DNA from: an uncultured Lachnospiraceae bacterium
GTDB lineage: Bacteria > Bacillota > Clostridia > Lachnospirales > Lachnospiraceae
DNA length: 22,336 nt
Assembly (NCBI GenBank): GCA_958405355.1
Contig: CATYEA010000004.1
Coordinates: 1-22,336 of the forward strand
Reading direction: 5' to 3'
Positions 8,689-22,336 of this stretch are shown in pieces. Position 1 is the stretch's first letter. The number at the start of each line of letters is the position of its first letter. A program made the position numbers and the translations under genes. Under the pieces are notes generated by a model. The model did not search any database. It was given only the letters and a program-made list of their open reading frames with translations, and was not told where the DNA came from.

Positions 8689-9858
8689 TTAATAATATGT
8701 AATATTTACCTGTTTGCCCAAATGCTCCATCGCATCCTTCAACTGGACAACCAGATTTTTGCGTACACTGATGTCAAATAACTGATTATTTTCATAATTT
8801 GCCTGATTATTGGCCTTACCCACAAAAAGATTCAGTTCAGTACATTCTTCCAATAAAATACGTGCCAGATGGGCGCCGCCGTTCTCTGCGTCCAGAGCCT
8901 CAAAAAAGTCAGCGTCAATATCTCCCTCATCAAACTGACGCAGCAATTTAAATGTATGGCTCATGGTCAGAACACCCTCCGTAACCAAATCCAGACCACG
9001 GATATTGGCCGTCGGCGGCACATCCTTCGTACCGTCGTTATTATTCGTCATTTCCCGGTTCAGATACCGGGCCGCAATCTGGCTGCTTGTACCGCCACAG
9101 ACAATCTTCTTGCCGGCGGCGGCCATAAAATCTTTCATCAGCCGGACATCGTCCTCTTTCTTTTCCGGAGGTCCGGTAAAAATATTGACAATATGACGTT
9201 CAATAATTCTGGTCACAGCCACCGTCGTATCATCTCCAGGCCGCTGCTGGTACAGATCATCACAGGCCTGACTGAGCATGGAAGCAATTCTCGCTGCCGA
9301 CTTGGTTTCCTTCACACATTTTAAGGTGTATTCGGCCATACTTTCCCAGGTCCATCCAAAATTCAGCAGTTCGCCCACACCGGCGTAAATCGTACCATCG
9401 CTCATAAGTACAAAACAGTCATCCGGCTGAACCTGAAAACGATACTCCCGGATTTTTCTTCCGCTGATCTCCCGAAAATTATCCGGTATGGTCATCAACC
9501 GTTTATTCCGAACAAATATACAACCCGGATTGTCAAATTCGACAAGATACGCATCACCGCTGTGGAAAATCTGTAAAATACTGAAAGTCGAATAAGATAC
9601 TCCCCGCACTTTACAGACTGGCAGAGTACTGGCCAGCGTTTCTACTGCTTCCTCAATCGGTTCACCCTTTAAAAACATGGTTCCCAGAATCTTTGATGCC
9701 AACGTTGCCAGAATATTTGCCTTCACACCGCTTCCCATGCCATCGGCCAAAATAACGATATCCGAGTCCTCCGTCTTTAAGATTTCCACCTTATCTCCGC
9801 ATAATTCCTCGTCATGTTTATTCAAACTTTTCCATGACACATCGATACTGACATTCAT
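8689..9858 (-). CDS. SpoIIE-type PP2C serine/threonine phosphatase with an unassigned C-terminal region
   Basis: 389 aa. Residues 1-220 form a SpoIIE/PP2C-like domain: ILADGMGSGVKA (36-47) with the metal-binding Asp39, LMSDGTIYAG (151-160) with Asp154, and PGDDTTVAV (207-215) with Asp209/Asp210. Such enzymes dephosphorylate Ser/Thr-phosphoproteins, classically anti-anti-sigma (STAS) proteins. No PAS, GAF, HAMP or membrane segment is attached, so the input should come from a partner protein. Residues about 225-389 (with VCGGTSSQIAARYLNRE and GLDLVTEGVLTM) are not a domain I recognise. The gene follows the PAS-hydrogenase gene by 18 bp, so the pair is surely co-expressed. A phosphatase next to sensory-type [FeFe]-hydrogenases is a recurring arrangement in Clostridia. 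Confidence 0.85.
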   Translation of the reverse strand: MNVSIDVSWKSLNKHDEELCGDKVEILKTEDSDIVILADGMGSGVKANILATLASKILGTMFLKGEPIEEAVETLASTLPVCKVRGVSYSTFSILQIFHSGDAYLVEFDNPGCIFVRNKRLMTIPDNFREISGRKIREYRFQVQPDDCFVLMSDGTIYAGVGELLNFGWTWESMAEYTLKCVKETKSAARIASMLSQACDDLYQQRPGDDTTVAVTRIIERHIVNIFTGPPEKKEDDVRLMKDFMAAAGKKIVCGGTSSQIAARYLNREMTNNNDGTKDVPPTANIRGLDLVTEGVLTMSHTFKLLRQFDEGDIDADFFEALDAENGGAHLARILLEECTELNLFVGKANNQANYENNQLFDISVRKNLVVQLKDAMEHLGKQVNITYY

Positions 9859-9876
9859 TTCACACCAACCTTCCGC

Positions 9877-11631
9877 CTATCTGCCGTCATCCTCTAACAT
9901 GGAACGCTTCAACTGGTTCAAAGTGGCCTTAGTTTCCGCCGTCGTTTCTCCAAGCAATCCGGCAATCTCCTGAGCCACCATCATCTGCTTATCAATGACC
10001 ATCTGGGCCGCTTCCACGGTTTTCATCTTCAACTGATACTGATGCTCCAGTTCCTTTTCTTCCGCCGTGATATCCTGAATGATCGTCAGCAGTGAATCCT
10101 GATTTTCCATATAAATCACGCTGGTCAACACCGTCATTCCATACGGTTCCAACTCCATTTTTCTTCGGTGGATAGACTGGTGGGTCTTTAAAATATCCTC
10201 AAACAAAGACGCATCCATAAATTCATAAATGTAACGCTCCAACGCTTCCTGCCTGGAAACCTTAAATACCTTTTCTGCCTTCACGTTAAACTCACTGATA
10301 CGCAAATCGTGACGAATAATCAAAATCATATTCGGTGTGGCCTCAAGAACCAGATTAGACATGGACTGGGCCTGTTCATATGTATGCGGAAGACACATAT
10401 CCAGTTCCGCCTTGCCCTGAAATACGGCAATGGCCTTCTCCCGGCAGCTTGTATAACCACAGGCACCGCAGTTTAATTCCTGGTCTTTGTTATACTTTCC
10501 GGTAGCCTTCAGAATTTCCTGAATCTCCTCTTCCGTCGGCATATGGTCATTTTCTTTTCTTGAATAGAATTTCTTAGCCATGACCACATCTACCGGCGCT
10601 TCCAAAGTTTCAGCCGGCGCATATTCTACCTGATCTTCGATATTAAAACGGGCCCGATATCTGGAGAATTCCATCTTCGTCGTCGCCGGTCCCTTGATAC
10701 ATCCGCCTTCACACATATTCATCTCTATAAAACAGTTCTGAATCTCTCCGGCTTCCATGGCTTCCAAAAGCTCCCGGCAGTTTTCAATACCATCCACAAA
10801 CATATGCCTGTATCCGGCTAACTGATCATCCGGACTCGCCAGAGTCTCCGGCTCACCGGAGTCAGGTCTTGACATCATGACCGACTGGATAACGCCCCGG
10901 CTCACCGGATACAGCCGATTGATCTTCGGGTCCGGATTGGCCATCGGACGATTTTCGCATTCACTGAGTACAATATTTTCCGACTGCATCCACTCTTTTA
11001 ATTCTCCAAAATGAATGACCGCATCGATAGCGCCTTCCGTTCGCTCATCTTCTTCCGCCTCTTCCTTCTTTGCCACACACGGGCCTAAGAAAACGACCTT
11101 CGTATCTTCACCATAAAGCTTCTTTATAAGCCGTCCATGGGCCACCATCGGCGACACTACCGGAGCAAGAAACTTCACCAGCGACGGATAATATTTCTCG
11201 ACCAGATCATTCACACTCGGACAGCAGGTTGTGATCATATTTGTCATCTGTCCCTCTGAAAGAATCTTTGCATATTCCTCCGTTACCAGAGCAGCGCCCT
11301 CCGCTGTCTCCCGGACGGCCGTAAACCCAAGCTTCAACAGACCATCCACGACCTGTCCCGGCGTATCATAATCCATAATTCCCAGATAAGACGGAGCAAT
11401 GGACACGACAACCTTTTCGCCGGAACGAATATAATATTTTACCCGGTCCAGATCACTGACAAAGGTCTTGGCATTCTGCGGACAGACTTCCAGACATTTG
11501 CCACACAAAATACAGTATTCCTTCATAATCTGCGCCTGGGCATTTTTCACCCGAATTGCCTTCACTGAACAGGAACGCACACATTTGTAGCAATGCTTAC
11601 AGCTTGCATTCTTAAAATCAATAATCTTCAT
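9877..11631 (-). CDS. hydS: Sensory-type (group C-like) [FeFe]-hydrogenase with PAS domain
   Basis: 584 aa. Order: two [4Fe-4S] ferredoxin clusters (Cys11/14/17/21 and Cys40/43/46/50); an H-cluster domain with altered loops, TTCCPSV (134-140), LGPCVAKKE (182-190) and EMNMCEGGCIKG (303-314), keeping Cys136/137, Cys185, Cys307 and Cys311; a further Fe-S motif CGACGYTSC...C (388, 391, 396, 413); a PAS domain (about 422-520); and a C-terminal helical tail (520-560). Catalytic enzymes have TSCCPxW, MPCxxKxxE and GCxxGGG. Here Trp, Met and the Gly-rich tail are missing, as in putative H2-sensing hydrogenases. No transmembrane segment is present. The PAS and helical tail end before the PP2C phosphatase gene, its likely output. 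The start is an ATG after AGGGGAGAG. It could instead be an Fe-S redox sensor without H2 chemistry. Confidence 0.87.
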   Translation of the reverse strand: MKIIDFKNASCKHCYKCVRSCSVKAIRVKNAQAQIMKEYCILCGKCLEVCPQNAKTFVSDLDRVKYYIRSGEKVVVSIAPSYLGIMDYDTPGQVVDGLLKLGFTAVRETAEGAALVTEEYAKILSEGQMTNMITTCCPSVNDLVEKYYPSLVKFLAPVVSPMVAHGRLIKKLYGEDTKVVFLGPCVAKKEEAEEDERTEGAIDAVIHFGELKEWMQSENIVLSECENRPMANPDPKINRLYPVSRGVIQSVMMSRPDSGEPETLASPDDQLAGYRHMFVDGIENCRELLEAMEAGEIQNCFIEMNMCEGGCIKGPATTKMEFSRYRARFNIEDQVEYAPAETLEAPVDVVMAKKFYSRKENDHMPTEEEIQEILKATGKYNKDQELNCGACGYTSCREKAIAVFQGKAELDMCLPHTYEQAQSMSNLVLEATPNMILIIRHDLRISEFNVKAEKVFKVSRQEALERYIYEFMDASLFEDILKTHQSIHRRKMELEPYGMTVLTSVIYMENQDSLLTIIQDITAEEKELEHQYQLKMKTVEAAQMVIDKQMMVAQEIAGLLGETTAETKATLNQLKRSMLEDDGR

Positions 11632-11649
11632 AAACGCTCTCCCCTACGT

Positions 11650-11681
11650 GCAACATTCTATACCCATTCGTGTATAGTTGC
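11650..11681 (-). promoter_or_regulatory. Hairpin in the hydS 5' leader
   Basis: CTATAC (11672-11677 read on the minus strand) pairs with GTATAG (11658-11663) over an 8-nt loop, extended by GCAA/TTGC (11678-11681 and 11650-11653) with a 4-nt bulge. It lies between the likely transcription start and the ribosome binding site, so it may be an operator or an RNA control structure. No known riboswitch consensus is recognised. Confidence 0.4.
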
Positions 11682-11709
11682 TTTCACCCCTGAAATATTT
11701 TTCTATTGT

Positions 11710-11738
11710 ATTATATCATTCTTTAGTAAACTTTTCAC
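11710..11738 (-). promoter_or_regulatory. Promoter of the hydS transcription unit
   Basis: TATAAT (11710-11715) is perfect; the -35 at 17 bp, GTGAAA (11733-11738), matches only 4 of 6. The strong -10 with a weak -35 suggests an activated promoter. It is the only clear promoter seen for the six genes from hydS to the M15 peptidase. Confidence 0.55.
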
Positions 11739-11803
11739 CTTCCATTCCGTGTTCTTTTTATATTCTTGTACAACTATAAAATTCTTATCATAGTTTTATA
11801 AAA

Positions 11804-11848
11804 GAACCAGCCGCCCTGCTCCCTGGCAAAGAGCAGAACGGCTGGTTC
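11804..11848 (-). terminator. Terminator after the multidomain FAD oxidoreductase gene
   Basis: Large hairpin: GAACCAGCCG (11804-11813) with CGGCTGGTTC (11839-11848) and CTGCTC (11816-11821) with GAGCAG (11831-11836). On the minus strand it is followed by TTTTATAAAA. Confidence 0.88.
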
Positions 11849-11915
11849 AGCAAAATATTTTTCTCTAAAAGTGGCACGAATTGTAAAAATCCGTCCTGAA
11901 TTGTAATTTCAAAAG

Positions 11916-14486
11916 TTAACAGGTTGCACCGCCAACGACGGTTTTTTCAAGAATCTGTTTCTTATCAATCTTACTGTTCAGCAGCTTATCCTGCACATAA
12001 TCAAAACCTAATCTTGCAATTGTATCTGCAAAACGTTCTCCGGAAATTCCTTCATCACGGAAGAACAGGATGGCACGCTCTACCACATCAATGACCTCTT
12101 CTTCGGAAGTAAAAATTCTATCCAATGCACGTCCCTCGGCCACCTTTTTGCCCCAACGTCCGCCGATATATACTTTATAGCCGGTCAGAGATTCGTTGAC
12201 AGCGCCGAATGGACATTTGCCTATACAGCGTCCGCAGTGATTACACTCGTCCAAATGAATCTGAATCTTTCCGTCAACCATTTGCGCTACTTTAATCGGA
12301 CAATTATTCTGAACCTGGCATACTTTACAGCCCTTACATTTTGCCAGGTCAATCTCCGGCAGTCTCTGACCGATAATACCAAGGTCATTTAAATTCGGTT
12401 TTACACAGTTATTTGGACAGCCGCCCACGGCGATTTTAAATTTATGAGGTAAAGATACTCCATGATAACCAACATAATACAAATGATGCAGCTTCTCAGA
12501 AAGATCGAAGGTATCGATTAAGCCATACTGACAGGTAGTTCCTTTACAGGATACCACCGGACGCACTTTGGAACCGGTGCCGCCGGTCTCCAGTCCGGCT
12601 TCCGCCAGGAATGCAAATAACGATTCCAGATTGTCATATGATACACCCTGGATCTCCAAAGTCAAACGGGTCGTCATAGTCACTTCGCCGGAACCGAATT
12701 TTTCAGCAGCCTCAGCCACTTTAATCTGTTCTTCGGAAGTCAGTTTTCCGTTCCGGGTAATCACGCGCACATTAAATACATCATCATATCTCTTATCCTG
12801 CAGACATCCCAAACCTTTGACACGTTTAATCTCGTCTGCCGAAAGCTTCTGTCCGTTACGAGGTACTTTCACATCATTAAAGAAAGCGCCGCCTTCCAGT
12901 ACCTTTGTATTCGTATAACCATAAGCTTTCAGGCGATTCTGCAGGAAGTAACCTCTCTTTCCTTTCGCACATACAAGCAAAAGTTTTGCATCCTTCGCCA
13001 ATCCATCAATCGGCCCATCAACATCAGAAAGATTAATCCAACGGGCGTTCGGAAGGGCTGGAGCCGGCTGTACATCCAATACCGTGTATTCTTTCGCCGC
13101 ACCTGCAGAATATTCCGCCGGACTCATAGAATTAAGGAGCCCATCCATTTTATTTTCCAGAACATAACATGCGGTAACGAACGGATGAATCGCCGTTGAA
13201 AACGGAGGCGCATAAGCAAAATCAAGGGTATCAAAATCATTCAGCTTCATTCCCTGGGAAATGCCTACCACGGCAATATCCGCCATCTTATCAACCGCAC
13301 CTGCACCAAGCACCTGAAGGCCCAGCAGCTTTCTGGTAGCTGTTTCAGCAATCAATTTAACGGTAAATGCAGATGCACCCGGATAATAATGGGCCTTATC
13401 ATCAACTACACAGATAATGGAGGTTGTCTCATATCCTTCCGCTTTCGCCTGAGCTTCCGTAAGACCAGTACGGCCGCCATTTAAAGTCGGAAGCAGACGT
13501 ACCACACCTGTGCCAAGGCATCCGCCGTAACCGTTCCCGATGCCATTCAGAGATTTTGCCATGGCACGGGCCGCCAGATTGGCCGTTGACCCCATGGCTG
13601 ACCATTGATTCCGGCCGGTCAAAGCATTTTTGACCATAGCACAGTCACCAACAGCATAGACATCCGGCAAATTTGTCTTCATGTGTTCATCCACCAGAAT
13701 GGTTCCTCTGACCATTTCAAGCCCTGAATCGGATAGAAATTCTGTTGCCGGGCGAACACCTATAGCCAAAATTACAATATCCGCTGCCAATGTGCCATTA
13801 TCTGTGATGACTTTTTCTGCTTTATCCGCTCCTTCAATACCTTCCAGACTGGTCAATGTCAACACACGCATGCCTGCAGCTTTGAGTTGCTTCTTGGCAT
13901 AATCTGCCATTTCTTCATCAAAAGCATTTGGCATAATCTGAGGTGCCGCATCAATTACAGTCACTTCAAGCCCCTGCGCCATCAGATTTTCTGCCACTTC
14001 CAGGCCAATAAATCCGGCGCCGCAGACAACAGCCTTACGGCATTTTTTCGCCTCTATGTAAGCACGGGCCGAAACCGCATCATCCGGTGTACGCACGCAA
14101 AATACCCCTTGAAGCTGTACGCCGTCTACCGGAGGAACAAACGGCATTGCCCCCGTAGCAATAATTAATTTGTCATAGCTTTCCGTCAATATCTCTCCTG
14201 AATTTTTTTTCAGACAGACCGTCTTTGCACAACTGTCAATCTCAGTTGCCTCCCATGCTGTGAAAACTTCAGCCCTAGTCAGTCCGGAATATTTTTCCGG
14301 CGTGTTCACAATCAGACTTTCTCGCGACGGAATATCTCCGCCTATGTAATAAGGAAGTCCGCATCCGGCATAAGAAATGTCTTCGCTCTTGGTATAGACT
14401 TTCACAATGGCATTACGGTCACAGCGTTTTAACTTAGCTGCCGCTTTTGTGCCCGCGGCCACACCGCCAATAATTACATACTTCAT
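11916..14486 (-). CDS. Multidomain FAD/NAD(P)H oxidoreductase: CoA-disulfide-reductase-like + rhodanese + sirohaem reductase-like + 2x[4Fe-4S]
   Basis: 856 aa. Domain order: FAD/NAD(P)H disulfide oxidoreductase (1-455), with Rossmann motif VIIGGVAAGTKAA (4-16), active Cys42 in SYAGCGLPYY, NAD motif GAGFIG (156-161), FAD motif VYAVGDC (276-282) and YAPPFS (425-430) as in CoA-disulfide reductases/NADH oxidases; rhodanese-like (about 464-545) with candidate persulfide Cys506 (LLVCAKGKRG); sirohaem nitrite/sulfite reductase-like half domain (about 555-705) with CKGTTC (647-652) and GGCPNNC (688-694); and a ferredoxin domain with Cys717/720/723/729 and Cys748/751/754/758. This suggests NAD(P)H-driven reduction of a sulfur compound such as sulfite, polysulfide or a persulfide; the substrate is inference. 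Start chosen at 14486 because AAGGAG lies 11-12 nt upstream; an in-frame ATG at 14507 lacks a ribosome binding site. The divergent LysR is the likely regulator. Confidence 0.82.
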   Translation of the reverse strand: MKYVIIGGVAAGTKAAAKLKRCDRNAIVKVYTKSEDISYAGCGLPYYIGGDIPSRESLIVNTPEKYSGLTRAEVFTAWEATEIDSCAKTVCLKKNSGEILTESYDKLIIATGAMPFVPPVDGVQLQGVFCVRTPDDAVSARAYIEAKKCRKAVVCGAGFIGLEVAENLMAQGLEVTVIDAAPQIMPNAFDEEMADYAKKQLKAAGMRVLTLTSLEGIEGADKAEKVITDNGTLAADIVILAIGVRPATEFLSDSGLEMVRGTILVDEHMKTNLPDVYAVGDCAMVKNALTGRNQWSAMGSTANLAARAMAKSLNGIGNGYGGCLGTGVVRLLPTLNGGRTGLTEAQAKAEGYETTSIICVVDDKAHYYPGASAFTVKLIAETATRKLLGLQVLGAGAVDKMADIAVVGISQGMKLNDFDTLDFAYAPPFSTAIHPFVTACYVLENKMDGLLNSMSPAEYSAGAAKEYTVLDVQPAPALPNARWINLSDVDGPIDGLAKDAKLLLVCAKGKRGYFLQNRLKAYGYTNTKVLEGGAFFNDVKVPRNGQKLSADEIKRVKGLGCLQDKRYDDVFNVRVITRNGKLTSEEQIKVAEAAEKFGSGEVTMTTRLTLEIQGVSYDNLESLFAFLAEAGLETGGTGSKVRPVVSCKGTTCQYGLIDTFDLSEKLHHLYYVGYHGVSLPHKFKIAVGGCPNNCVKPNLNDLGIIGQRLPEIDLAKCKGCKVCQVQNNCPIKVAQMVDGKIQIHLDECNHCGRCIGKCPFGAVNESLTGYKVYIGGRWGKKVAEGRALDRIFTSEEEVIDVVERAILFFRDEGISGERFADTIARLGFDYVQDKLLNSKIDKKQILEKTVVGGATC

Positions 14487-14507
14487 AATCCCCGTTTCTC
14501 CTTTCAT

Positions 14508-14627
14508 TATCCCGAAATAAACCGTTTTTTTTATTATAATACTTGTTATCCATAAATAAAAATCGTAAAATATAATTTATAATATTGAAAAAATCTATAT
14601 ATACAGAATCTTTCAGGGGGAATACAT
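14508..14627. promoter_or_regulatory. Divergent promoter region of the FAD oxidoreductase and lysR
   Basis: Very AT-rich, 120 bp. Minus-strand TATAAT at 14533-14538 (weak -35 TTTTAT at 14556-14561) serves the oxidoreductase. Plus-strand TTGTTA (14543-14548), 17-bp spacer and TAAAAT (14566-14571) is a candidate lysR promoter. The imperfect palindrome AATAT-N8-ATATT (14569-14586) could be a LysR box. AGGGGGAA lies upstream of the lysR ATG. Confidence 0.5.
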
Positions 14628-15602
14628 ATGACTATTCGACATTTGAAAATATTTATTACAGTGGCAGAAACCGGCTCCATGAGTACTGCAGCCAATCGCC
14701 TTTATTTATCACAGCCGACTGTCAGCCAGGCAATCCGGGATTTGGAAAATCACTATCAGATACAATTATTTGAACGTTCACACAAGAAGCTTTTTATTAC
14801 GGAGGAAGGCCGCCAATTACTGAATCTGGCCCGCATGACTGTGGGTAACTTTGACAGTCTGGAGCTTTCCATGCAAAGTTTCCAGGAGCGCATCCATCTG
14901 CGCATCGGGTCCTCTCTGACCGTAGGAACCTGTCTTATGGCAAAGGTTATTTCTGACCTGGAAAAAGAATATCCTAAGATGGATATCTATTCCTTCGTCA
15001 GCAACACCGCGGAAATTGAGCAGAAATTACTCCGGCATGAACTGGACGTCGCCATCGTGGAGGGAATCATCGAATCTCCTGAATTAGCCAGTATACCGAT
15101 TGTAGAAGACTCCCTCGTTCTTGTGTGCGGAAAAAATCATGACTTTTATGAAAAAGAGGTTGTCTACGCTTCGGAGCTGGAAGGACAGAAGTTTGCCATA
15201 CGTGAAAAAGGCAGCGGAACCCGGAAATTATTCGAACAATATCTATCCACGCATAACATCCATATAAAAACCTCCTGGGAGGCCAACTGCCCCCGCACAA
15301 TTATGAATGCTGTCATTTATAATAACGCCCTCGCCGTTATATCTGAACGATTGGTAAAACACGAATGTATTCACAAGACAGTAAAAATCTTCCATTACGA
15401 AACCGGGGAATGGAACCGTCATTTTAAATTAGTTTATCTGAAAAACAACTCTGGCGGCGCTGACCATTTCTGCTGTCCTGCCGGCAGCAAGGTTTCCTCC
15501 CCTGGCATTGAAAATCTGCGGACCGTGCTGGAACGTTACCGTACTATAAATCTTCCCCAGGAAATTTCCTCCTGCGTATTTAAAAACGATAAAATATCTT
15601 AA
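14628..15602 (+). CDS. LysR-family transcriptional regulator
   Basis: 324 aa, the standard LTTR length. The N-terminal winged helix-turn-helix is clear: MTIRHLKIFITVAETGSM, then AANRLYLSQPTVSQAIRDLE (about 21-40) and LFERSHKKLFITEEGRQLL (residues about 46-64). The effector-binding domain covers about 90-300, with the LRIGSSLTVG start and LDVAIVEGIIE (about 137-147). The start is an ATG preceded by AGGGGGAA. The gene is divergent from the FAD/rhodanese/sirohaem oxidoreductase, which such regulators usually control; an effector linked to sulfur or cysteine metabolism would fit but cannot be read from sequence. It is convergent with the hydrogenase operon, sharing the terminator at 15610-15641. 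The C-terminal 40 residues, with CVFKND at the end, are poorly conserved in type. Confidence 0.92.
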   Translation: MTIRHLKIFITVAETGSMSTAANRLYLSQPTVSQAIRDLENHYQIQLFERSHKKLFITEEGRQLLNLARMTVGNFDSLELSMQSFQERIHLRIGSSLTVGTCLMAKVISDLEKEYPKMDIYSFVSNTAEIEQKLLRHELDVAIVEGIIESPELASIPIVEDSLVLVCGKNHDFYEKEVVYASELEGQKFAIREKGSGTRKLFEQYLSTHNIHIKTSWEANCPRTIMNAVIYNNALAVISERLVKHECIHKTVKIFHYETGEWNRHFKLVYLKNNSGGADHFCCPAGSKVSSPGIENLRTVLERYRTINLPQEISSCVFKNDKIS

Positions 15603-15609
15603 AGCAAAA

Positions 15610-15641
15610 CAGGAAGAGCTTATTGCTCTTCCTGCATTTTT
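15610..15641 (+). terminator. Terminator of lysR, possibly also of the hyd operon
   Basis: Perfect 10-bp stem CAGGAAGAGC (15610-15619) and GCTCTTCCTG (15625-15634) with a TTATT loop, then CATTTTTG. On the minus strand the same stem is followed by TTTTGCTTT, so it may weakly terminate the convergent hydA. Confidence 0.88.
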
Positions 15642-15653
15642 GTTATAAATTAC

Positions 15654-17402
15654 TTAGTTTCCATTAACACTCCGTTTTACATAGGTTGTATGGAGGACTT
15701 CATGAGCCTTATGGCTTCCCGGTTCTCCAAAATACTCTTCGTAGACCTTCTTGATAGAAGGATTTTCATGAGATTTACGGATTGTCTTTGCAGCATCATT
15801 GTCATACAGCACTTTCGCACGGATTCCCTGAACATCCACAGTATTGCGGACGGTTCCGGATACCTGAGGCTGACCGCCGCCATTGACGCAGCCGCCAGGA
15901 CAGCCCATGATCTCAATAAAATGATAATCTGCTTCGCCGGCTTTTACTTTTTCAAGAAGCTGTCTTGCATTGCCGAGACCGGAAGCTACGGCAACTTTCA
16001 CATCCATACCGGCCACATTGTAAGTGGCTTCCTTGATTCCCTTTGTTCCGCGGACATCGACAAAATCCGGATTCGGAAGTTCTTCGCCAGTCAGAGTTTC
16101 TACTGCAGTACGAAGGGCTGCTTCCATAACACCGCCGGTAGCGCCGAAGATGACAGCTGCACCGGTAGATTCGCCCAATGGGTCATCAAAGCCTTCATCC
16201 GGCAGCTCGTTAAACCGGATGCCGAGGCGTTTGATCATACGGGCCAGCTCACGAGTCGTCATGGCATAGTCCACATCCGGTACACCCGCTGCACTCTGGT
16301 CCGGACGGCCGATTTCAAATTTCTTAGCTGTACACGGCATAATGCTGACACTGACGATCTTCTTCGGATCGATGCCCATCTTTTCCGCATAATAGGTCTT
16401 TAACACAGCACCGAACATCTGCTGCGGGGACTTACAGGAGGACAGATTTTCTGTCATATCCGGGAAGTAATGCTCGCAGTATTTAATCCAGCCCGGTGAG
16501 CAGGATGTGATCATCGGAAGAACACCGCCGTTCTGTACCCGGTCAAGGAATTCGTGGGCCTCTTCCATAATGGTCAGGTCCGCACTGAAATCCGTATCAA
16601 AGACTTTATCAAAACCAATTCTCCGAAGGGCTGCTGCCATCTTGCCTTCCACATCGGTGCCCATTGGATAACCAAATTCTTCGCCGAGGGCGGCACGTAC
16701 CGACGGAGCCGTCTGAACACAAACATATTTTTCCGGATCAGCCACAGCTTCAAGGACCTCATCTATATAATCTTTTTCTCTCAATGCGCCCGTTGGACAG
16801 ACAGCAATACACTGTCCGCAGGATACACAGCTTGTCTCCCCAAGCCCCATATCAAAAGCGGAACCAATATAAGTTTTGAAACCACGCTCATTCGCTCCGA
16901 TAACACCGATGCCCTGAACTTTTTCACAGACAGCCACACAACGGCGGCAGAGAATACATTTACTGTTATCACGAATCATATGTGCGGCGGAAGTATCGAT
17001 TTCACTCGCAAGCATCTCACCATCATATTTATGTTCATCGGTCACACCCAAATCCCGGCAGAGCTGCTGTAATTCGCAGTTTCCGCTGCGGACACAGGAA
17101 AGACATTCTTTCCTGTGATTGGAAAGAAGCAATTGAAGTGTCTTTTTCCGGGATTCTAAAACTTTTGGTGTGTTGGTCCATACTTCCATACCCTCGTTGA
17201 TCGGGTAAACACAGGCAGTCACCAATGTTCTTGCCCCCTTCACCTCAACAACGCACATACGGCAGGCACCGATTTCATTAATCTCTTTTAAATAACATAA
17301 GGTTGGAATTTCAATATGCACCAGTCTGGCCGCCTCAAGAATCGTGGAGCCAGCCGGAGCGGTTACATCCATACCATTGATTTTAATTGTAATATCGCCC
17401 AT
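15654..17402 (-). CDS. hydA: NAD(P)-linked [FeFe]-hydrogenase catalytic subunit HydA (HndD-like, group A3)
   Basis: Catalytic H2-activating subunit of the soluble HydABC(D)/Hnd complex. 582 aa from the chosen start, like HndD; the extra C-terminal [2Fe-2S] domain of Thermotoga HydA is absent. N-terminal [2Fe-2S]: Cys36/47/50/64. His-ligated [4Fe-4S]: His96, Cys100/103/109. Two further [4Fe-4S]: Cys149/152/155/159 and Cys192/195/198/202. H-cluster loops: TSCSPGW (299-305), MPCTAKKFE (355-363) and EIMGCPGGCVNGGG (497-510). L1 has TSCS where model enzymes have TSCC. The start at 17402 is preferred since GGAGGG lies 8 nt upstream; an ATG at 17417 overlaps the hydB stop (TAATG) but has only a weak site. 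It is last in the operon. Electron bifurcation to ferredoxin plus NAD is the likely role, by family. Confidence 0.95.
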   Translation of the reverse strand: MGDITIKINGMDVTAPAGSTILEAARLVHIEIPTLCYLKEINEIGACRMCVVEVKGARTLVTACVYPINEGMEVWTNTPKVLESRKKTLQLLLSNHRKECLSCVRSGNCELQQLCRDLGVTDEHKYDGEMLASEIDTSAAHMIRDNSKCILCRRCVAVCEKVQGIGVIGANERGFKTYIGSAFDMGLGETSCVSCGQCIAVCPTGALREKDYIDEVLEAVADPEKYVCVQTAPSVRAALGEEFGYPMGTDVEGKMAAALRRIGFDKVFDTDFSADLTIMEEAHEFLDRVQNGGVLPMITSCSPGWIKYCEHYFPDMTENLSSCKSPQQMFGAVLKTYYAEKMGIDPKKIVSVSIMPCTAKKFEIGRPDQSAAGVPDVDYAMTTRELARMIKRLGIRFNELPDEGFDDPLGESTGAAVIFGATGGVMEAALRTAVETLTGEELPNPDFVDVRGTKGIKEATYNVAGMDVKVAVASGLGNARQLLEKVKAGEADYHFIEIMGCPGGCVNGGGQPQVSGTVRNTVDVQGIRAKVLYDNDAAKTIRKSHENPSIKKVYEEYFGEPGSHKAHEVLHTTYVKRSVNGN

Positions 17403-17416
17403 TTTTCTGCCCTCCA

Positions 17417-19207
17417 TTACTCTTTATAAATTGCGCCAAAACGGCATTTTTCCATACAAGCGCCACACTTGATACATTTATCCTGATGAATCATATGCGG
17501 TTCCTTAACCTTGCCTTCGATAGCTCCGGCCGGACAGGTTCTGGCACAGAGCGTACAGCCACGGCATTTGTCCGCATCAATATGATAGGACAGGAGCGCC
17601 TTACAGACGCCGGCCGGACAGTGCTTATCTACAACGTGGGCCACATACTCATCTCTGAAGTAACGCAGGGTGGACAATACCGGGTTCGGTGCAGTCTGAC
17701 CAAGACCACAGAGGGAATTATCCTTAATATAATAAGCCAGTTCTTCCAGACGATCCAAATCTTCCAATGTTCCCTGGCCTTTTGTAATCTTATCCAGAAT
17801 CTCATACATACGTTTTGTACCGACACGGCACGGCGTACATTTTCCGCAGGACTCATCCACTGTAAATTCCAGGAAGAATTTGGCAATATCTACCATACAG
17901 TTGTCCTCATCCATGACGATCAGACCGCCAGAACCCATCATGGAACCGATTTCGATCAGGTTGTCATAGTCGATTGGAATATCAAAATGCTCTGCCGGAA
18001 TACATCCACCGGATGGGCCACCGGTCTGAGCCGCCTTAAACTTCTTACCATTTGGAATGCCGCCGCCGATTTCCTCAACAACGGTACGCAGCGTCGTTCC
18101 CATAGGAATTTCCACAAGACCGGTATTATTAATCTTACCGCCAAGGGCAAATACTTTCGTTCCTTTGGATTTTTCCGTACCCATGGACGCAAACCATTCG
18201 GCACCATTTAAAATAATCTGAGGAATATTCGCATAAGTTTCTACATTATTTAAAATCGTCGGGCTGGCAAATAAACCTTTAACAGCCGGGAACGGCGGTC
18301 TCGGTCTCGGCTCACCACGATTACCTTCGATGGAAACCATAAGAGCAGTCTCTTCACCACAGACGAAAGCGCCTGCGCCCAAACGTAAATCAATATCAAA
18401 ATTAAATCCTGTTCCAAAAATATCTTTACCAAGCAGACCATATTCTCTGGCCTGATTAATGGCAATTTCCAGACGTTTTACAGCAATCGGATACTCAGCA
18501 CGGACATAGATATAACCCTGATCTGCTCCGATCGCATAACCGGCAATGGCCATGGCCTCCAGAACAACGTGTGGGTCACCTTCCAGAACAGAACGGTCCA
18601 TGAATGCGCCCGGATCACCTTCGTCGGCGTTACAACAGACATATTTCTGAACCTCGCCCCGGTTGGAGGAGGCAAATTTCCATTTCAGACCCGTCGGGAA
18701 ACCGGCGCCGCCACGGCCGCGAAGACCACTGTCCAGAATGACCTGAATAACTTCATCCGGTGTCATCTCGGTAAGTACCCGACCAAGGGCTTCATAACCA
18801 TTAGTTCCGATATATTCATCAATATTTTCCGGATTGATCACACCACAGTTGCGCAGAGCAATCCGGTGCTGTTTCTTGTAAAAATCTGTTTCTGCAAGGG
18901 ATTTTACACCATCATCCGTCAATGTCTCATCATAAACAAGACGTTTAACGACACGGCCTTTGAGCAGATGCTCTTCAACGATCTCCGGAATATCTTCCTC
19001 TTTTACCATCGAATAGAAAATGGCTTCCGGATAAACAACCATGATCGGACCAAGGGCACACAGACCATGACATCCGGTCTGAACAACGGATACTTCTTTT
19101 GTCAATCCCTGTTTATCAAGTTCTCGTTTTAATCTCTCTAAAATTCTCTGGCTGCCGGAGGACGTACATCCTGTGCCACCGCATACCAGAACATGCGCAC
19201 GATACAT
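17417..19207 (-). CDS. hydB: Hydrogenase subunit HydB (HndC/NuoF-like, NAD(P)H- and FMN-binding)
   Basis: 596 aa. The N-terminal thioredoxin-like [2Fe-2S] domain has CGGTGC (9-14) and CHGLC (46-50). The NuoF core binds FMN and NAD(H): GLRGRGGAGFPTGLKWKF (161-178), NADEGDPGAF (193-202) and GAGAFVCGEETAL (277-289). The [4Fe-4S] site SCGKCTPCRVG (453-463) uses Cys454/457/460/500. The C-terminal ferredoxin domain has two [4Fe-4S] clusters (Cys548/551/554/558 and Cys578/581/584/588). KHCPAGVC (528-535) precedes it and may form part of the zinc site reported in HydABC structures (from memory). This is the flavin subunit where NAD(H) reacts and bifurcation is thought to occur. AGGAGG precedes the ATG. 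It is 17 bp downstream of hydD. Confidence 0.95.
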   Translation of the reverse strand: MYRAHVLVCGGTGCTSSGSQRILERLKRELDKQGLTKEVSVVQTGCHGLCALGPIMVVYPEAIFYSMVKEEDIPEIVEEHLLKGRVVKRLVYDETLTDDGVKSLAETDFYKKQHRIALRNCGVINPENIDEYIGTNGYEALGRVLTEMTPDEVIQVILDSGLRGRGGAGFPTGLKWKFASSNRGEVQKYVCCNADEGDPGAFMDRSVLEGDPHVVLEAMAIAGYAIGADQGYIYVRAEYPIAVKRLEIAINQAREYGLLGKDIFGTGFNFDIDLRLGAGAFVCGEETALMVSIEGNRGEPRPRPPFPAVKGLFASPTILNNVETYANIPQIILNGAEWFASMGTEKSKGTKVFALGGKINNTGLVEIPMGTTLRTVVEEIGGGIPNGKKFKAAQTGGPSGGCIPAEHFDIPIDYDNLIEIGSMMGSGGLIVMDEDNCMVDIAKFFLEFTVDESCGKCTPCRVGTKRMYEILDKITKGQGTLEDLDRLEELAYYIKDNSLCGLGQTAPNPVLSTLRYFRDEYVAHVVDKHCPAGVCKALLSYHIDADKCRGCTLCARTCPAGAIEGKVKEPHMIHQDKCIKCGACMEKCRFGAIYKE

Positions 19208-19224
19208 AGAACGCTACCTCCTGA

Positions 19225-19596
19225 CTATAATCTTGTTTCGTTTAATGTATATTTTCCCAATACATGACCGCGGACCAAATGCTGCTCCAGCATTTCCATA
19301 GCTTTATCCACGTTCATCTTCACATAGGTTACTTTTTCTTTACCCGGTTCCAGCACCTCAACAATCGGCTCATACTGACACAATCCGATACATCCGGTCT
19401 GAGTTACAACCACGTTGCTCATGCCCCGTTTCTGAACTTCATCGGATAATACATTAAGTACCGGTCTTGCGCCGCTGGCAATACCGCAGGTCGCCATACC
19501 GACAATGACACGCGTCTGTCCCGAATCCTCGGAACGCATGCCGACTTTTCCCTGCATCTTCTCACGAATAGCTTTTAATTCTTCAAGCGATTTCAT
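19225..19596 (-). CDS. hydD: Hydrogenase accessory subunit HydD (HndB-like thioredoxin-fold ferredoxin)
   Basis: 123 aa, thioredoxin-like [2Fe-2S] ferredoxin fold. The first half has GMATCGIASGARPV (33-46) and the second VTQTGCIGLC (64-73). Only three cysteines of the usual four are present: Cys37, Cys69 and Cys73. The residue where a second N-terminal Cys would be expected is Ser41 or Gly42. HndB-type proteins and A. woodii HydD belong to this group, and A. woodii HydD is, as I recall, found in the purified complex without an assigned cofactor. The role is therefore structural, or it holds an unusual or absent cluster. AGGAGG precedes the start, 19 bp after hydE and 17 bp before hydB. Confidence 0.88.
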   Translation of the reverse strand: MKSLEELKAIREKMQGKVGMRSEDSGQTRVIVGMATCGIASGARPVLNVLSDEVQKRGMSNVVVTQTGCIGLCQYEPIVEVLEPGKEKVTYVKMNVDKAMEMLEQHLVRGHVLGKYTLNETRL

Positions 19597-19615
19597 AATA
19601 ATAGCTACCTCCTAT

Positions 19616-20173
19616 TCAAATGATGGCCCCGCCATCCACGTCCATTTTATTCTCCGTTAAATATTCCCGTATGTACTCAGCCACCTCCGGCGTATCCAGA
19701 GGAATGCCGCCGAGAATCTCTTTCATCTGCCGCGTATCCAAAATAAATTCCCTGTCATCGTACCGATAGGTATAACAAAATTCTACCTCCGGATGAAAAT
19801 GAATCAGTGTGTAGATTGTCCCGCTGATATCTCCCAGAGGCATCCGGTCAATATGGCTCAATCGAAACTCTGCCCGAACAAGGGTGCCTTCACCGACCTT
19901 CGAGTCAATCTGAAAATCCCCGTCCGCACTGAGCGCCGCCATCTTAAAGAAAGGAACTCCGAGTCCCACTTTTCGTGTTGTCCGCGTCGTAAAAAAAGGA
20001 TCCTCCACCTGAGCAAGCTGCTCCTTCGTCATACCGCAGCCATCATCCTTAATGATGATCGTCAGCCGGTCCGTCAGATTATCTACCAGAACACTGATCT
20101 CCACAAGAGAGGCCCCGGCCCGGGTGGAATTTTCTGCTACATCAAGAATATTTAAGGAAATCTCCGTCATCAT
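19616..20173 (-). CDS. hydE: GHKL-type ATPase (HydE-like) inside the hydrogenase operon
   Basis: 185 aa. Residues 1-105 are an HATPase_c domain: N-box ILDVAENSTRAGA (9-21) with Asn15, G1 box DDGCGM (43-48), and a short G2/lid TRKVGLGVPFF (66-76) followed by GEGT (94-97). There is no His-phosphotransfer, receiver or membrane domain, so it is not a normal sensor kinase; a Ser/Thr protein kinase of RsbW type or an ATP-dependent chaperone are alternatives. The C-terminal 80 residues (DRMPLGDISGTIYTLIHFHPEVEFCY...) are not a domain I recognise. It starts 3 nt after the hydC stop without a good ribosome binding site, so translation is probably coupled. The same position holds hydE in the A. woodii hyd cluster (from memory), where its role is unknown. 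Confidence 0.85.
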   Translation of the reverse strand: MMTEISLNILDVAENSTRAGASLVEISVLVDNLTDRLTIIIKDDGCGMTKEQLAQVEDPFFTTRTTRKVGLGVPFFKMAALSADGDFQIDSKVGEGTLVRAEFRLSHIDRMPLGDISGTIYTLIHFHPEVEFCYTYRYDDREFILDTRQMKEILGGIPLDTPEVAEYIREYLTENKMDVDGGAII

Positions 20174-20176
20174 AAC

Positions 20177-20671
20177 TTAGTCATATTTCGCCAGGATGGC
20201 TTCAACATCATCTACAGACAGACGTCCGTATACCTCGTCGTTGATCATCATGACCGGTGCCAGACCACAGGCTCCGACACAACGGCAGGCATCCAGAGAA
20301 AACTTTCCATCCGGCGTACATTCACCGCCGACAATCCCCAGTAAATCCATAAGTTTATTATAAATATCTCCGGACCCCTTAACATAGCAGGCGGTTCCAA
20401 GACAGACAGAAATCTGATAACGCCCCTTTGGATTTAATGCAAACTGTGAATAAAAGGTTGCCACACCATAAATCTTTTCCAGAGGCACATGAAGCTCGTC
20501 GGAAATCATCGTCTGTACCTCAATCGGCAAATATCCGTAGATTTCCTGGGCCTTCTGCATGATCGGCATCAGAGAGCCCTTTTCTCCCTGGAGCTCATGA
20601 ATTGCAGAAAGCAATGCCTCTTTCTGCTCTGCTGTTCCAGTAAACGGAACACTCTGTTTCTTACTTCCCAA
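20177..20671 (-). CDS. hydC: Hydrogenase subunit HydC (HndA/NuoE-like [2Fe-2S] protein)
   Basis: NuoE-type thioredoxin-fold subunit that passes electrons within the HydABC complex. The [2Fe-2S] ligands are CLGTAC and CVGAC, at Cys93/98 and Cys134/138 when counted from the upstream GTG; IYGVATFYSQF and HydC-typical DACRCVGACG are present. Start: an SD-like AAGGGGTGA lies 5-6 nt before TTG (20669-20671), giving MGSKKQSVPF and 164 aa. The GTG at 20678-20680, within the SD itself, would add three residues; neither is an ATG. It is first in the operon hydC-hydE-hydD-hydB-hydA and lies divergent from the DRTGG gene. Confidence 0.93.
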   Translation of the reverse strand: MGSKKQSVPFTGTAEQKEALLSAIHELQGEKGSLMPIMQKAQEIYGYLPIEVQTMISDELHVPLEKIYGVATFYSQFALNPKGRYQISVCLGTACYVKGSGDIYNKLMDLLGIVGGECTPDGKFSLDACRCVGACGLAPVMMINDEVYGRLSVDDVEAILAKYD

Positions 20672-20704
20672 AATAATCACCCCTTAATTAAAATCTAGTA
20701 ACTA

Positions 20705-20733
20705 ATTATACCACTATTTTTGTAAAATTTCTA
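20705..20733 (-). promoter_or_regulatory. Promoter of the hyd operon
   Basis: Minus-strand TATAAT (20705-20710) is perfect. The best -35 at 17 bp is TAGAAA (20728-20733), 4 of 6 matches. It lies about 35 bp upstream of the TTG start. The weak -35 suggests activator dependence. No match to the Rex consensus (TTGTGAA-N4-TTCACAA) was seen. Confidence 0.5.
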
Positions 20734-20752
20734 TATATATGCGCGAAAACAA

Positions 20753-20800
20753 TATACAATTTTTCCAATTTCATGGTATAATTGTACTAATTGGTACAAT
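20753..20800 (+). promoter_or_regulatory. Promoter plus 20-bp palindromic operator of the DRTGG-RsbW-hydrogenase-like operon
   Basis: TATACA (20753-20758), 18-bp spacer, TATAAT (20777-20782). The palindrome ATTGTACTAATTGGTACAAT (20781-20800) matches its own reverse complement at 18 of 20 positions, and begins in the -10 and covers the transcription start: a classical repressor position. A third half-site, ATACAAT, is at 20754-20760. AGGAGGAG precedes the ATG at 20823. Confidence 0.75.
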
Positions 20801-20822
20801 CCATAAAATCAGGAGGAGCAAT

Positions 20823-21179
20823 ATGACAGTTCAATCCATAAAAGAATTATTAAACGCCCGTGTGTTGGGCGGAGATGACATGCTTGACCGTGAAGTTTTT
20901 ACTGCCTGCGGCTCAGATATGATGAGCGATGTCCTTGCCCATGTGGATGATCAGGCAGTCCTTATCACTGGTCTCTGTAATCCTCAGGTGCTTCGCACCG
21001 CGGAAATGATGGACATTGTCTGTGTCATCATGGTCCGAAACAAACAGCCGGATGACGCCATGATTCAGATGGCTGCTGAGCGGAATATTTGTCTGCTTGC
21101 CACGTCACTGCCTATGTTTACAACCTGCGGACTTCTTTATGACGCCGGACTTCGGGGAGGTGGACAACATGGAAAATAG
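20823..21179 (+). CDS. DRTGG-domain protein
   Basis: 118 aa, starting at the ATG after AGGAGGAG. MTVQSIKELLNARVL, ACGSDMMSDVLAHVDDQAVLITGL and RNICLLATSLPMFTTCG match the DRTGG domain, a small domain also found before HPr kinase and in phosphotransacetylase-like proteins. It occurs alone beside clostridial hydrogenase operons. Function is unknown; binding of a small ligand or a regulatory partner is often suggested. There is no catalytic P-loop. It overlaps the next gene by 11 bp (ATG within the last codons), so the two are translationally coupled. It is divergent from hydC and carries its own operator. Confidence 0.82.
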   Translation: MTVQSIKELLNARVLGGDDMLDREVFTACGSDMMSDVLAHVDDQAVLITGLCNPQVLRTAEMMDIVCVIMVRNKQPDDAMIQMAAERNICLLATSLPMFTTCGLLYDAGLRGGGQHGK

Positions 21180-21600
21180 TCTCATGTCTTTAAAATACCA
21201 TGTATCACCTACTGACTTTACCCGGGCTGGTGAGGCGAGCAGCGACGTGAAAAATAAATTAAAAAAGCTTGGTGTGCCGCCGGAAATTATTCGAAAAGTT
21301 GCCATTGCCATGTATGAAGGTGAGATCAATATGGTCATCCATGCCAACGGCGGTGACATTTCCGTCGATATTACACCGGATGCCATTTTTATGGAATTAA
21401 AAGATGTCGGTCCCGGCATCGAAGATATTGATAAAGCCATGCAGGCCGGTTATTCCACAGCCCCGGATAATGTTCGTTCCCTCGGTTTCGGCGCTGGTAT
21501 GGGTCTTCCAAATATGAAAAAAAATTCCGATACTATGGATATCCAGACCGTACTTGGTCAGGGAACGACCGTGACCATGACAGTAAATATGCCGGAATAA
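21169..21600 (+). CDS. Anti-sigma-factor-like (RsbW/SpoIIAB-type) GHKL serine kinase or ATPase
   Basis: 143 aa from the ATG at 21169, after GGGGAGGTGG. A lone HATPase_c domain: N-box MYEGEINMVIHA (48-59) with Asn54, G1 DVGPGI (79-84), and G2 GFGAGMGLPNM (106-116) followed by GQGTTV (130-135). The length and the lack of any other domain match RsbW/SpoIIAB anti-sigma kinases, which phosphorylate a Ser on an anti-anti-sigma protein and hold a sigma factor. Neither a STAS protein nor a sigma factor is seen here, so the target is unknown; the neighbouring DRTGG protein, hydrogenase or phosphatase may be partners (inference). It is coupled to the DRTGG gene by an 11-bp overlap and followed after 37 bp by the hydrogenase-like gene. 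Confidence 0.83.
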   Translation: MENSLMSLKYHVSPTDFTRAGEASSDVKNKLKKLGVPPEIIRKVAIAMYEGEINMVIHANGGDISVDITPDAIFMELKDVGPGIEDIDKAMQAGYSTAPDNVRSLGFGAGMGLPNMKKNSDTMDIQTVLGQGTTVTMTVNMPE

Positions 21601-21637
21601 CCGGATATCGAGAACTATTAGAAAGGATGGTGTGTTT

Positions 21638-22336
21638 ATGGATAATCATAAGTTCTTCCACTCCGTCTATTTAAATGAAGAATTATGCAACGGCTGCATC
21701 AACTGCATCAAACGATGTCCAACTCAGGCGATCCGTGTACGCAACGGCAAGGCCGTCATTACAAGCCAGTTTTGTATTGACTGCGGCGAATGTGTACGCA
21801 TCTGTGCCCATCATGCCAAACGCAGCCATTATGACCGACCGGATATTCTCAGCAACTTCAAATATACCGTGGCACTTCCGGCGCCGTCCCTGTACAGCCA
21901 ATTTAATAACCTGGATGATATCAACATCGTATTGACCGCCTTAATCTACATGGGTTTTAACGATGTTTTTGAAGTGGCCTCCGCTGCAGAGATCGTTTCA
22001 GAAGTATCCCGGAAATATATCGACGAACACCCTGAAAAATGGCCTTTGATCAGTACGGCCTGTCCTTCAGTGGTCCGTCTGATTCGTGTACGCTTTCCGA
22101 ATCTGATTGACCATCTGCTGCCGATTAACCCACCAGTGGAAGTTGCCGCCCGGCTGGCCCGGAAATACGCTGTCGAAAAAACAGGTATGGCCCCGGAAGA
22201 TATCGGCATCATTTTCATCTCTCCGTGCCCTTCCAAGGTTACCTACGCCAAAGAACCTCTTGGAACAGCAAAAAGTGATATTGACGGTGTTCTTGCTATC
22301 AAGGATATCTATCCGATACTCCTTCCGCTTATGGTG
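21638..22336 (+). CDS. [FeFe]-hydrogenase-like Fe-S protein, N-terminal 233 residues (3' end cut by window)
   Basis: Open from the ATG at 21638 (after AAAGGATGG) to the window end. Two ferredoxin [4Fe-4S] clusters come first: Cys17/20/23/27 and Cys46/49/52/56 (LCNGCINCIKRCP and FCIDCGECVRIC). The H-cluster domain follows: STACPSV (139-145) in place of TSCCPxW and ISPCPSK (195-201) in place of MPCxxK. The first Cys of the L1 pair, the proton-relay position in active enzymes, is Ala141; the cluster ligand Cys142 is kept, and Cys197 is the L2 ligand. The L3 loop and any C-terminal domain lie beyond the window. This suggests a sensory or regulatory hydrogenase homologue rather than a turnover enzyme. 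It is third in the DRTGG/RsbW operon. Confidence 0.83.
   Translation, partial: MDNHKFFHSVYLNEELCNGCINCIKRCPTQAIRVRNGKAVITSQFCIDCGECVRICAHHAKRSHYDRPDILSNFKYTVALPAPSLYSQFNNLDDINIVLTALIYMGFNDVFEVASAAEIVSEVSRKYIDEHPEKWPLISTACPSVVRLIRVRFPNLIDHLLPINPPVEVAARLARKYAVEKTGMAPEDIGIIFISPCPSKVTYAKEPLGTAKSDIDGVLAIKDIYPILLPLMV

Follow-up and report, generated by a model that had tools for sequence, protein, structure and literature searches.

A co-inherited gene set joining a group-D-type hydrogenase-like protein to GHKL, DRTGG and PHP proteins beside bifurcating [FeFe]-hydrogenase operons, and its separation from a nearby PAS hydrogenase-phosphatase pair

Studies of sensory [FeFe]-hydrogenases have treated them as enzymes, and the question of their signalling partners is open, most of all in group D, whose members lack a PAS domain. 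Among the closest described relatives of the system considered here is TamHydS of Thermoanaerobacter mathranii, a putative sensory group D (M2e) protein whose gene lies near a bifurcating hydABC operon and a histidine-kinase-like ATPase (PMC8163306). H2 sensing by group D proteins with a flanking ATPase has already been proposed, and the accessible part of that report mentions no neighbour other than this ATPase and an AraC regulator (PMC8163306). Here we analyze a stretch of 22,336 nucleotides from an uncultured Lachnospiraceae bacterium (GenBank assembly GCA_958405355.1, contig CATYEA010000004.1), which we call the window. It carries a group A3 bifurcating hydrogenase operon (HydABC) and, on the opposite strand, genes for a DRTGG protein, a GHKL-type ATPase, and a TamHydS-like protein that we name HydSD. 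Beyond the features described for TamHydS, the present locus and its relatives add DRTGG and PHP proteins, a further ATPase (GHKL1) within the hyd operon, and the co-inheritance and fusion of these parts.

For group C hydrogenases, H2 sensing via a phosphatase has been proposed (PMC6776011, PMC5707799, PMC5037454), and in Thermoanaerobacterium saccharolyticum, strains deleted for hfsB or hfsC differ in their fermentation products or in how these are regulated (PMC5707799). For Clostridium thermocellum, the genes mentioned upstream of hyd operons include phosphatases, kinases, and PAS sensors (PMC3492117); all of these statements are from the accessible parts of the papers cited. In literature that treats FeFe-hydrogenases and PHP domains, a predicted Rex site is listed ahead of a PHP gene. 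We found no description of the gene set discussed below in the literature searched, part of which was judged by title and abstract among the matches listed, and with most subscription papers outside that search its absence is not proven.

An earlier sequence-only reading of the window had combined a PP2C phosphatase, two GHKL ATPases, a DRTGG protein, and two hydrogenase-like proteins into a single phospho-signalling system around the hydrogenase. All of these parts are indeed present, as is HydABC, judged by Pfam and NCBIfam matches, but the parts fall into two modules. Module 1 is a set of six genes that encode DRTGG-a, GHKL2, HydSD, DRTGG-b, a PHP protein, and the GHKL1 protein of the hyd operon. 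Module 2 consists of a PAS-containing hydrogenase and the phosphatase. Co-inheritance and natural fusions name GHKL2, the two DRTGG proteins, PHP, and GHKL1 as likely partners of a group-D-type protein, which opens the signalling question to direct experiments on six proteins.

Co-inheritance and natural fusions of module 1

Two samples of loci were used to examine module 1. The first was anchored on an alignment of GHKL1, which gave at least 343 confirmed stretches in genome contigs, and the best 80 loci were kept. These contain GHKL1 (80), HydC (77), HydB (75), and HydA (60), with many loci ending at contig ends. In 59 loci the upstream flank reaches 5 kb or more; of these, 52 have DRTGG, 50 GHKL2, 49 HydSD, and 49 all three. 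Where both flanks extend 9 kb or more (34 loci), GHKL2 is present in 26 cases, HydSD in 25, and PP2C plus PAS hydrogenase in five. In relatives, HydSD is usually followed by a second, shorter DRTGG protein (DRTGG-b) and then by the PHP-domain protein. The two arms are divergent in 41 of the 62 loci that have both GHKL1 and GHKL2, lie on one strand in 18, and in three the set is placed between HydC and GHKL1. The DRTGG and GHKL2 reading frames share a four-base overlap in 22 of the 60 pairs. In two loci a protein of about 440 amino acids is encoded between DRTGG and hydC (L016:7875-9224, PAS-GGDEF by Pfam; L021:7692-9014, similar by eye).

The second sample was anchored on hydA, and so was not chosen for the regulators; it comprises 100 regions of up to 20 kb. 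The HydA model NF040763 at E 1e-180 matches 208 of the 299 genomes in the phylum of Catenibacillus scindens, which we take to be Bacillota. GHKL1 occurs in 47 of the 100 regions, DRTGG-b in 45, GHKL2 and HydSD in 43 each, PHP in 39, and DRTGG-a in 34. By comparison, 20 arbitrary 19.7-kb control regions from 20 sampled genomes hold none of the families (0/20). Co-occurrence was counted in the 96 regions with at least 8.5 kb upstream, of which 49 have no module gene, 46 have GHKL1, and one has only HydSD and DRTGG-b. The 46 GHKL1-positive regions contain GHKL2 (43), HydSD (42), DRTGG-b (44), PHP (38), and DRTGG-a (34), and further copies are present inside fusions (DRTGG-a in eight cases, DRTGG-b in two, GHKL2 in one). 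Thus, GHKL2 is present in 43 of 46 regions with GHKL1 and in none of the 50 without it (Fisher p 4e-24, kinship ignored). At the level of genomes, A3 HydA is found in 113 of 123 GHKL1-positive and 95 of 176 other genomes (odds ratio 9.6, p 2e-13, kinship likewise ignored).

To take kinship into account, a quick maximum-likelihood tree was built from the 96 HydA proteins; GHKL1 changes 12 times on it, and it yields six starred independent pairs. GHKL2 goes along with GHKL1 in 5.7 of these six pairs (median p 0.031), HydSD in 5.6 (p 0.031), PHP in 5.4 (p 0.031), DRTGG-b in 5.4 (p 0.063), DRTGG-a in 5.1 (p 0.063), and the small operon protein Fd2 in 4.6 (p 0.063), each with 0.0 opposing. Proteins labelled HydSC show no association on this tree (1.2 along, 0.2 opposing, p 1).

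In-frame fusions, found with our own profiles, link the proteins of module 1 in two chains: DRTGG-a, GHKL2, HydSD, and DRTGG-b form one, and PHP, GHKL1, and Fd2 form the other. DRTGG is fused to GHKL2 in eight regions, although these cases look alike and may represent one event. GHKL2 is joined to HydSD once (L139), HydSD to DRTGG-b twice (L118, L129), PHP to GHKL1 twice (L231, L232), and GHKL1 to Fd2 once (L140, by our own profile, with Pfam confirming the ATPase part only). In three further proteins, CBS domains precede GHKL2 (L080:494-1501, L248:2541-3533, L081:2341-3192), hinting at nucleotide sensing. The eight fusions scanned with Pfam show both parts (L080, L231, L087, L139, L118, L081, L248, L232). 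Because these genes are both co-inherited and fused, it is very likely that module 1 is a functional unit. The signalling-type cassette linked to a hydrogenase that the sequence-only reading had postulated does exist, with a partly different membership.

Proteins of module 1 and their possible roles

Our preferred reading, whose odds we put at about even, casts module 1 as a regulator dedicated to HydBC-type NADH modules, here HydABC, with H2 or redox state and nucleotides as its inputs. HydSD would bind H2 or follow the ferredoxin potential at its H-cluster and hand a conformational signal to GHKL2, which would receive a nucleotide signal through the DRTGG domain (or through CBS domains in some relatives) and would then phosphorylate or clamp a partner. 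PHP, paired with GHKL1 as an ATP-binding switch, would act on a presumed substrate to reverse or complete the signal at the HydBC module, the presumed target. That the set works by Ser/Thr phosphorylation is a more tentative idea, possible but less likely than not. If true, such a regulator would help explain how fermenters match a bifurcating hydrogenase to H2 and energy status, a match that shapes the yields of acetate, ethanol, and, in the rumen, methane.

The motifs of HydSD are those of a group-D-type (M2e) hydrogenase-like protein, an assignment made on motifs. Loops were counted in rows of at least 350 amino acids, with the CpI residue numbers used in PMC8163306. All four H-cluster cysteines are kept in 60 of 60 relatives, C299 is Ala in 57 of 60, and the M353 position is Ser or Thr in 59 of 60; the window copy reads STACP and ISPC, and so has lost C299 and changed M353 in the same manner. 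The C-terminal Cx2Cx4Cx16C motif is present in 59 of 60 relatives (the window copy ends before that part), and Pfam finds no PAS domain in the HydSD copy of L033, so that these last two group D traits are established for relatives only. TamHydS shares the loss of C299, the change of M353 to Ser/Thr, the C-terminal motif, and the lack of PAS (PMC8163306, accessible part). In the catalytic subunit HydA (window 15654-17417), loop 1 reads TSCSPGW in 59 of 59 HydA proteins. The residue directly preceding Pro is thus Ser, whereas it is Cys in the hydrogenase-like proteins of the window. We presume that this Ser is a known trait of the HydA class.

GHKL2 keeps the N-box Glu and Asn in 94 of 94 sequences, has the ExxxN N-box of the SpoIIAB/RsbW type together with the GHKL G boxes, and aligns with SpoIIAB chains. 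Its score with TIGR01925 is 55.3 bits against a cut-off of 135, and therefore we call it SpoIIAB-like rather than SpoIIAB. The likeness to the SpoIIAA-SpoIIAB-sigmaF and RsbV-RsbW-SigB switches extends to a similar succession of an acceptor candidate, a kinase candidate, and a third partner. The difference is that DRTGG holds the STAS place and a hydrogenase-like protein holds the sigma place, in the window and in relatives. In DRTGG-a, S63 is invariant (87 of 87 sequences). As the sequence-only reading had noted, none of the 20 window open reading frames scanned with Pfam was reported as a STAS or sigma family member; the surroundings of GHKL2 in relatives were not surveyed for such partners. 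Beyond position 22336, where a STAS or sigma gene had been hoped for, the gene order of relatives predicts DRTGG-b and then PHP. One could imagine a partner switch that lacks a sigma factor, in which DRTGG replaces the STAS phospho-acceptor, the group D hydrogenase replaces sigma, the H2 or redox state of the H-cluster picks the partner of GHKL2, and the freed partner drives a post-translational PHP-GHKL1 output on HydBC-type NADH modules, whether these belong to hydrogenases, to molybdopterin-type enzymes, or to complex I. We consider this scheme quite improbable.

The PHP protein, a phosphoesterase that lay out of sight of the sequence-only reading, has a complete metal site in relatives (metal residues kept in 110 to 111 of 111). 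By family, DRTGG and CBS domains are nucleotide binders. This trait, and weak sequence matches of PHP to 3e0f (E 0.0044) and 2yb1 (E 0.0051), are what might be expected if PHP made or destroyed a small phosphorylated signal that DRTGG or CBS domains bind, with the GHKL proteins serving as ATP-gated switches that are not kinases. Such a role is rather unlikely, given that the PHP matches cover only about 75 residues and that GHKL2 retains its SpoIIAB-type N-box and G boxes.

GHKL1 is of another kind. It models best on MutL, TopoVI-B, and GyrB ATPases (VIA-align), with a fold that extends beyond the GHKL core, and its N-box has Asp in 135 of 136 sequences where SpoIIAB-type proteins have the catalytic Glu. 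We therefore speak of a MutL-like fold and not of a member of the MutL family, from which GHKL1 also differs as a stand-alone protein of 185 amino acids in an oxidoreductase operon. No histidine kinase is among the 50 VIA-align matches shown for GHKL1, although WalK ranks second with Foldseek; the absence excludes nothing. Among the PHROGs families, GHKL1 hits one that carries a kinase annotation and two of no known function (E 6e-10 to 4e-8), and DRTGG and GHKL2 have no match at 0.001. The proposal that both GHKL proteins are RsbW-like kinases thus stands as a candidate assignment for GHKL2, and modelling of GHKL1 does not support a kinase. Neither protein has a HisKA match in Pfam. Separately, an RseC/MucC-family protein is encoded directly 3' of GHKL1 in two loci (L233:1404-1895, L239:3122-3580).

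The MutL/GyrB-type modelling of GHKL1, its location between structural genes, and its single fusion to Fd2 would also suit a cassette for assembly or repair, in which GHKL1 and PHP build or protect the Fe-S/flavin module of HydBC and HydSD is a scaffold or carrier with no sensory role. The occurrence of the set with HydBC-type modules where A3 HydA is not found (see below) would suit it as well. However, HydSD relatives retain the H-cluster cysteines and the group D loop features, and GHKL2 is SpoIIAB-like, with a kinase-type N-box and with CBS or DRTGG domains in some relatives. Moreover, 50 of 96 hydA regions manage without GHKL1. On balance, we find assembly or repair unlikely.

Module 1 also accompanies HydBC-type NADH modules more widely. 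With a GHKL1 search at E 1e-40, matches occur in 24 of 118 genomes in the phylum of L077 (labelled Deltaproteobacteria), two of 148 in that of L079 (Bacteroidetes), and seven of 121 in that of L080 (Thermoflexales). PHP or DRTGG-b is present in all 17 short loci read from these phyla, three of which repeat L077, L079, and L080, and HydC is present in 7/8, 0/2, and 7/7 of them, respectively. In the phylum of the second sample, 10 genomes have GHKL1 and no A3 HydA at the threshold used. Nine of their loci were read, and HydSD is seen in seven. Two (L239 and L242) carry HydC and HydB, one (L237) has a 352-amino-acid frame that matches the front of HydA only, and one (L238) shows part of a HydA where the fetched DNA ends. 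The presence of the set in loci without A3 HydA indicates that HydSD is more than an accessory of that hydrogenase.

Several observations weigh against the reading of module 1 as a regulator of the hydrogenase, or against the surveys behind it. Four of the nine loci just described consist of HydSD, DRTGG-b, PHP, and GHKL1 followed by genes unmatched by our profiles (L236, L240, L241, L243, the first and last near-identical by look), and another (L235) couples HydBC with a molybdopterin-type subunit. In L228, from the phylum of L077, a gene for the complex I 49-kDa subunit is followed by DRTGG-b, GHKL1, HydC, Fd2, and HydB. Because the set occurs without detected A3 HydA, the hydrogenase need not be the target, and conversely the GHKL1-negative hydA regions show that A3 hydrogenases exist without GHKL1. 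The second sample was also taken from the best-scoring hydA hits, two of the five module-gene tree tests reach only p 0.063, and the starred branches of the quick tree are less sure.

The PAS hydrogenase and its phosphatase

Module 2 resembles the group C3 arrangement of HydDB (HydS/HfsB with HfsC), in which a PAS hydrogenase adjoins a Ser/Thr phosphatase and H2 sensing is proposed (PMC5037454, PMC6776011, PMC5707799, PMC11837493, all in their accessible parts). The window protein likewise combines a hydrogenase domain with PAS and has a phosphatase gene alongside. It differs in that no HfsD-type hydrogenase gene lies beside it in the window, in its nearness to an A3 hyd operon containing GHKL1, and in its loop 1. 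The first Cys of loop 1 (C299) is not conserved in M2e and M2f (PMC8163306, accessible part), and the PAS hydrogenase keeps the tandem CC in eight of eight sequences (the protein and seven relatives). We therefore call it C3-like and leave M2f membership open. The sequence-only reading had assigned altered H-cluster loops to both hydrogenase-like proteins. This is correct for the M353 position, which is Gly in all eight PAS hydrogenases and changed in HydSD, and the loss in loop 1 applies to HydSD and not to the PAS hydrogenase.

The phosphatase retains its metal-binding Asp residues (D22, D39-G40, D154-G155, and D209-D210, conserved in 8/8), and its top Foldseek match is the SpoIIE phosphatase 5mqh (E 8.9e-13). 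Its C-terminal part (about residues 230 to 389) has no clear structural match in a search with the whole protein, where the matches shown span about the length of the phosphatase domain.

Several facts are compatible with the single system of the sequence-only reading. All parts lie within 14 kb in the window, PP2C and the PAS hydrogenase are similarly close in seven of the 80 GHKL1 loci (side by side in all seven, within the fetched flanks), and Catenibacillus scindens has a 63% identical PAS hydrogenase 8.5 kb from hydA. In that genome (L201), PP2C is 3.3 kb from the PAS hydrogenase, and a hyd operon with GHKL1 lies just beyond the fetched stretch. Against a single system, PP2C occurs in none of the 46 GHKL1-positive hydA regions. 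At E 1e-60, a search with the PAS hydrogenase finds matches in 124 of 299 genomes, partly via the hydrogenase domain alone. Twenty regions centred on full-length matches were read: PP2C directly adjoins the PAS hydrogenase in 19 (split over two frames in L202) and GHKL1, GHKL2, and HydSD are in none of the fetched stretches, though nine hold another HydCBA set; six hold an HfsD-type hydrogenase. In the window itself, module 2 is set apart by a hairpin that resembles a terminator and by a promoter-like site of its own. We therefore regard a single system as very unlikely. The survey of co-occurrence thus bears out the sequence-only reading for DRTGG, both GHKL proteins, and HydSD, and separates PP2C and the PAS hydrogenase from them. 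The phosphatase probably belongs to module 2, which is inherited on its own as a further putative H2-sensing unit and lies near module 1 in this lineage, where cross-talk between the modules may occur. Three short PP2C-profile hits (156 to 159 amino acids; L131, L148, L151) are doubtful, and that in L148 has no Pfam match at 0.001.

Layout of the window and other hydrogenase-domain regulators

The features of the window are collected in Table 1. Read leftward, the catalytic operon has the order HydC, GHKL1, Fd2, HydB, and HydA, and the domain set of HydA, HydB, and HydC is complete by Pfam and NCBIfam, as expected for a group A3 bifurcating hydrogenase. The NCBIfam score of Fd2, like its Pfam score, is below cut-off. 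The start of DRTGG-a was moved from 20739 to 20823, probably its true start, given that AGGAGG precedes that ATG and that the Met is aligned in 56 of 58 relatives. The first codons of GHKL2 overlap the 3' end of the DRTGG-a gene. To the left of the operon are a LysR gene, a flavin/sulfite-reductase-like gene, the hairpin, a promoter-like site (11738-11710) ahead of the PAS hydrogenase gene, and then the PAS hydrogenase and phosphatase genes. For both GHKL2 and PP2C, the close relatives that bear a name carry the label Frisingicoccus or Lachnospiraceae.

Table 1. Positions of module 1, hyd operon, and module 2 features in the window
Feature	Position	Strand	Basis
SpoIIE-type PP2C phosphatase (module 2)	8689..9858	-	Pfam SpoIIE/PP2C, 50.1 bits (cut-off 25)
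PAS-containing sensory hydrogenase, group C3-like (module 2)	9877..11631	-	Pfam PF02906, PF00989, PF04060
Terminator-like hairpin, between 11916-14507 gene and module 2	11804..11848	-	Sequence scan
HydA, catalytic [FeFe]-hydrogenase subunit	15654..17417	-	NCBIfam NF040763, 923 bits (cut-off 765)
HydB, NADH/FMN subunit	17417..19207	-	Pfam
Fd2, small thioredoxin-like [2Fe-2S] protein, hyd operon	19225..19596	-	PF01257, 19.6 bits (below 24.8 cut-off)
GHKL1, stand-alone MutL/TopoVI/GyrB-type GHKL within hyd operon	19616..20173	-	Pfam HATPase_c
HydC (NuoE-like) subunit	20177..20680	-	Pfam PF01257, 170 bits
Divergent intergenic region	20681..20822		Promoter-like sites for both arms, consensus matches only
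DRTGG-a (module 1)	20823..21179	+	Pfam PF07085, 30.9 bits (cut-off 25.2)
GHKL2, SpoIIAB-like ATPase/kinase candidate	21169..21600	+	Pfam PF13581 (HATPase_c_2/HATPase_c)
HydSD, group-D-type sensory [FeFe]-hydrogenase-like	21638..22336, cut by window end	+	Pfam Fe_hyd_lg_C

A palindrome, TTGTACTAATTGGTACAA, follows a promoter-like -10 box in the window. It is not among the palindromes listed for the 41 other divergent loci, a listing of up to six for each locus with 6-base arms that match exactly, and a conserved operator between the divergent arms was therefore rejected.

Other regulators with hydrogenase domains were observed in the hydA regions, which contain 13 HydSC-like proteins. In 10 of the 11 that were scanned, an [FeFe]-hydrogenase domain is fused to the AAA+ domain of a sigma-54 activator (L106:12807-15053, L095:10860-13139, L109:4839-7067, L123:2838-5078, L127:12700-14946, L145:6582-8807, L164:6338-8548, L081:11143-13827, L141:14610-16898, L169:2030-4699). 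Eight of the 10 have a helix-turn-helix match at 1e-8, and most are encoded just downstream of hydA. Such fusions are putative hydrogenase-domain transcription activators; judged by class names alone, none of the HydDB classes C1-C3 corresponds to them. In a further protein of 1068 amino acids (L162:2526-5732), a hydrogenase domain shares one chain with GAF domains and a HATPase of the histidine-kinase type.

Three other window genes deserve mention. The gene at 11916-14507, divergent from the LysR gene, encodes an 863-amino-acid fusion of pyridine nucleotide-disulfide oxidoreductase, rhodanese, nitrite/sulfite reductase, and 4Fe-4S domains. At 5054-6757, an M48 peptidase is joined to an F5/8-type NADase_transloc domain, and the frame at 3429-4013 encodes a low-complexity coiled-coil protein built on repeated EEMKEVKADIQEMKADIREL units.

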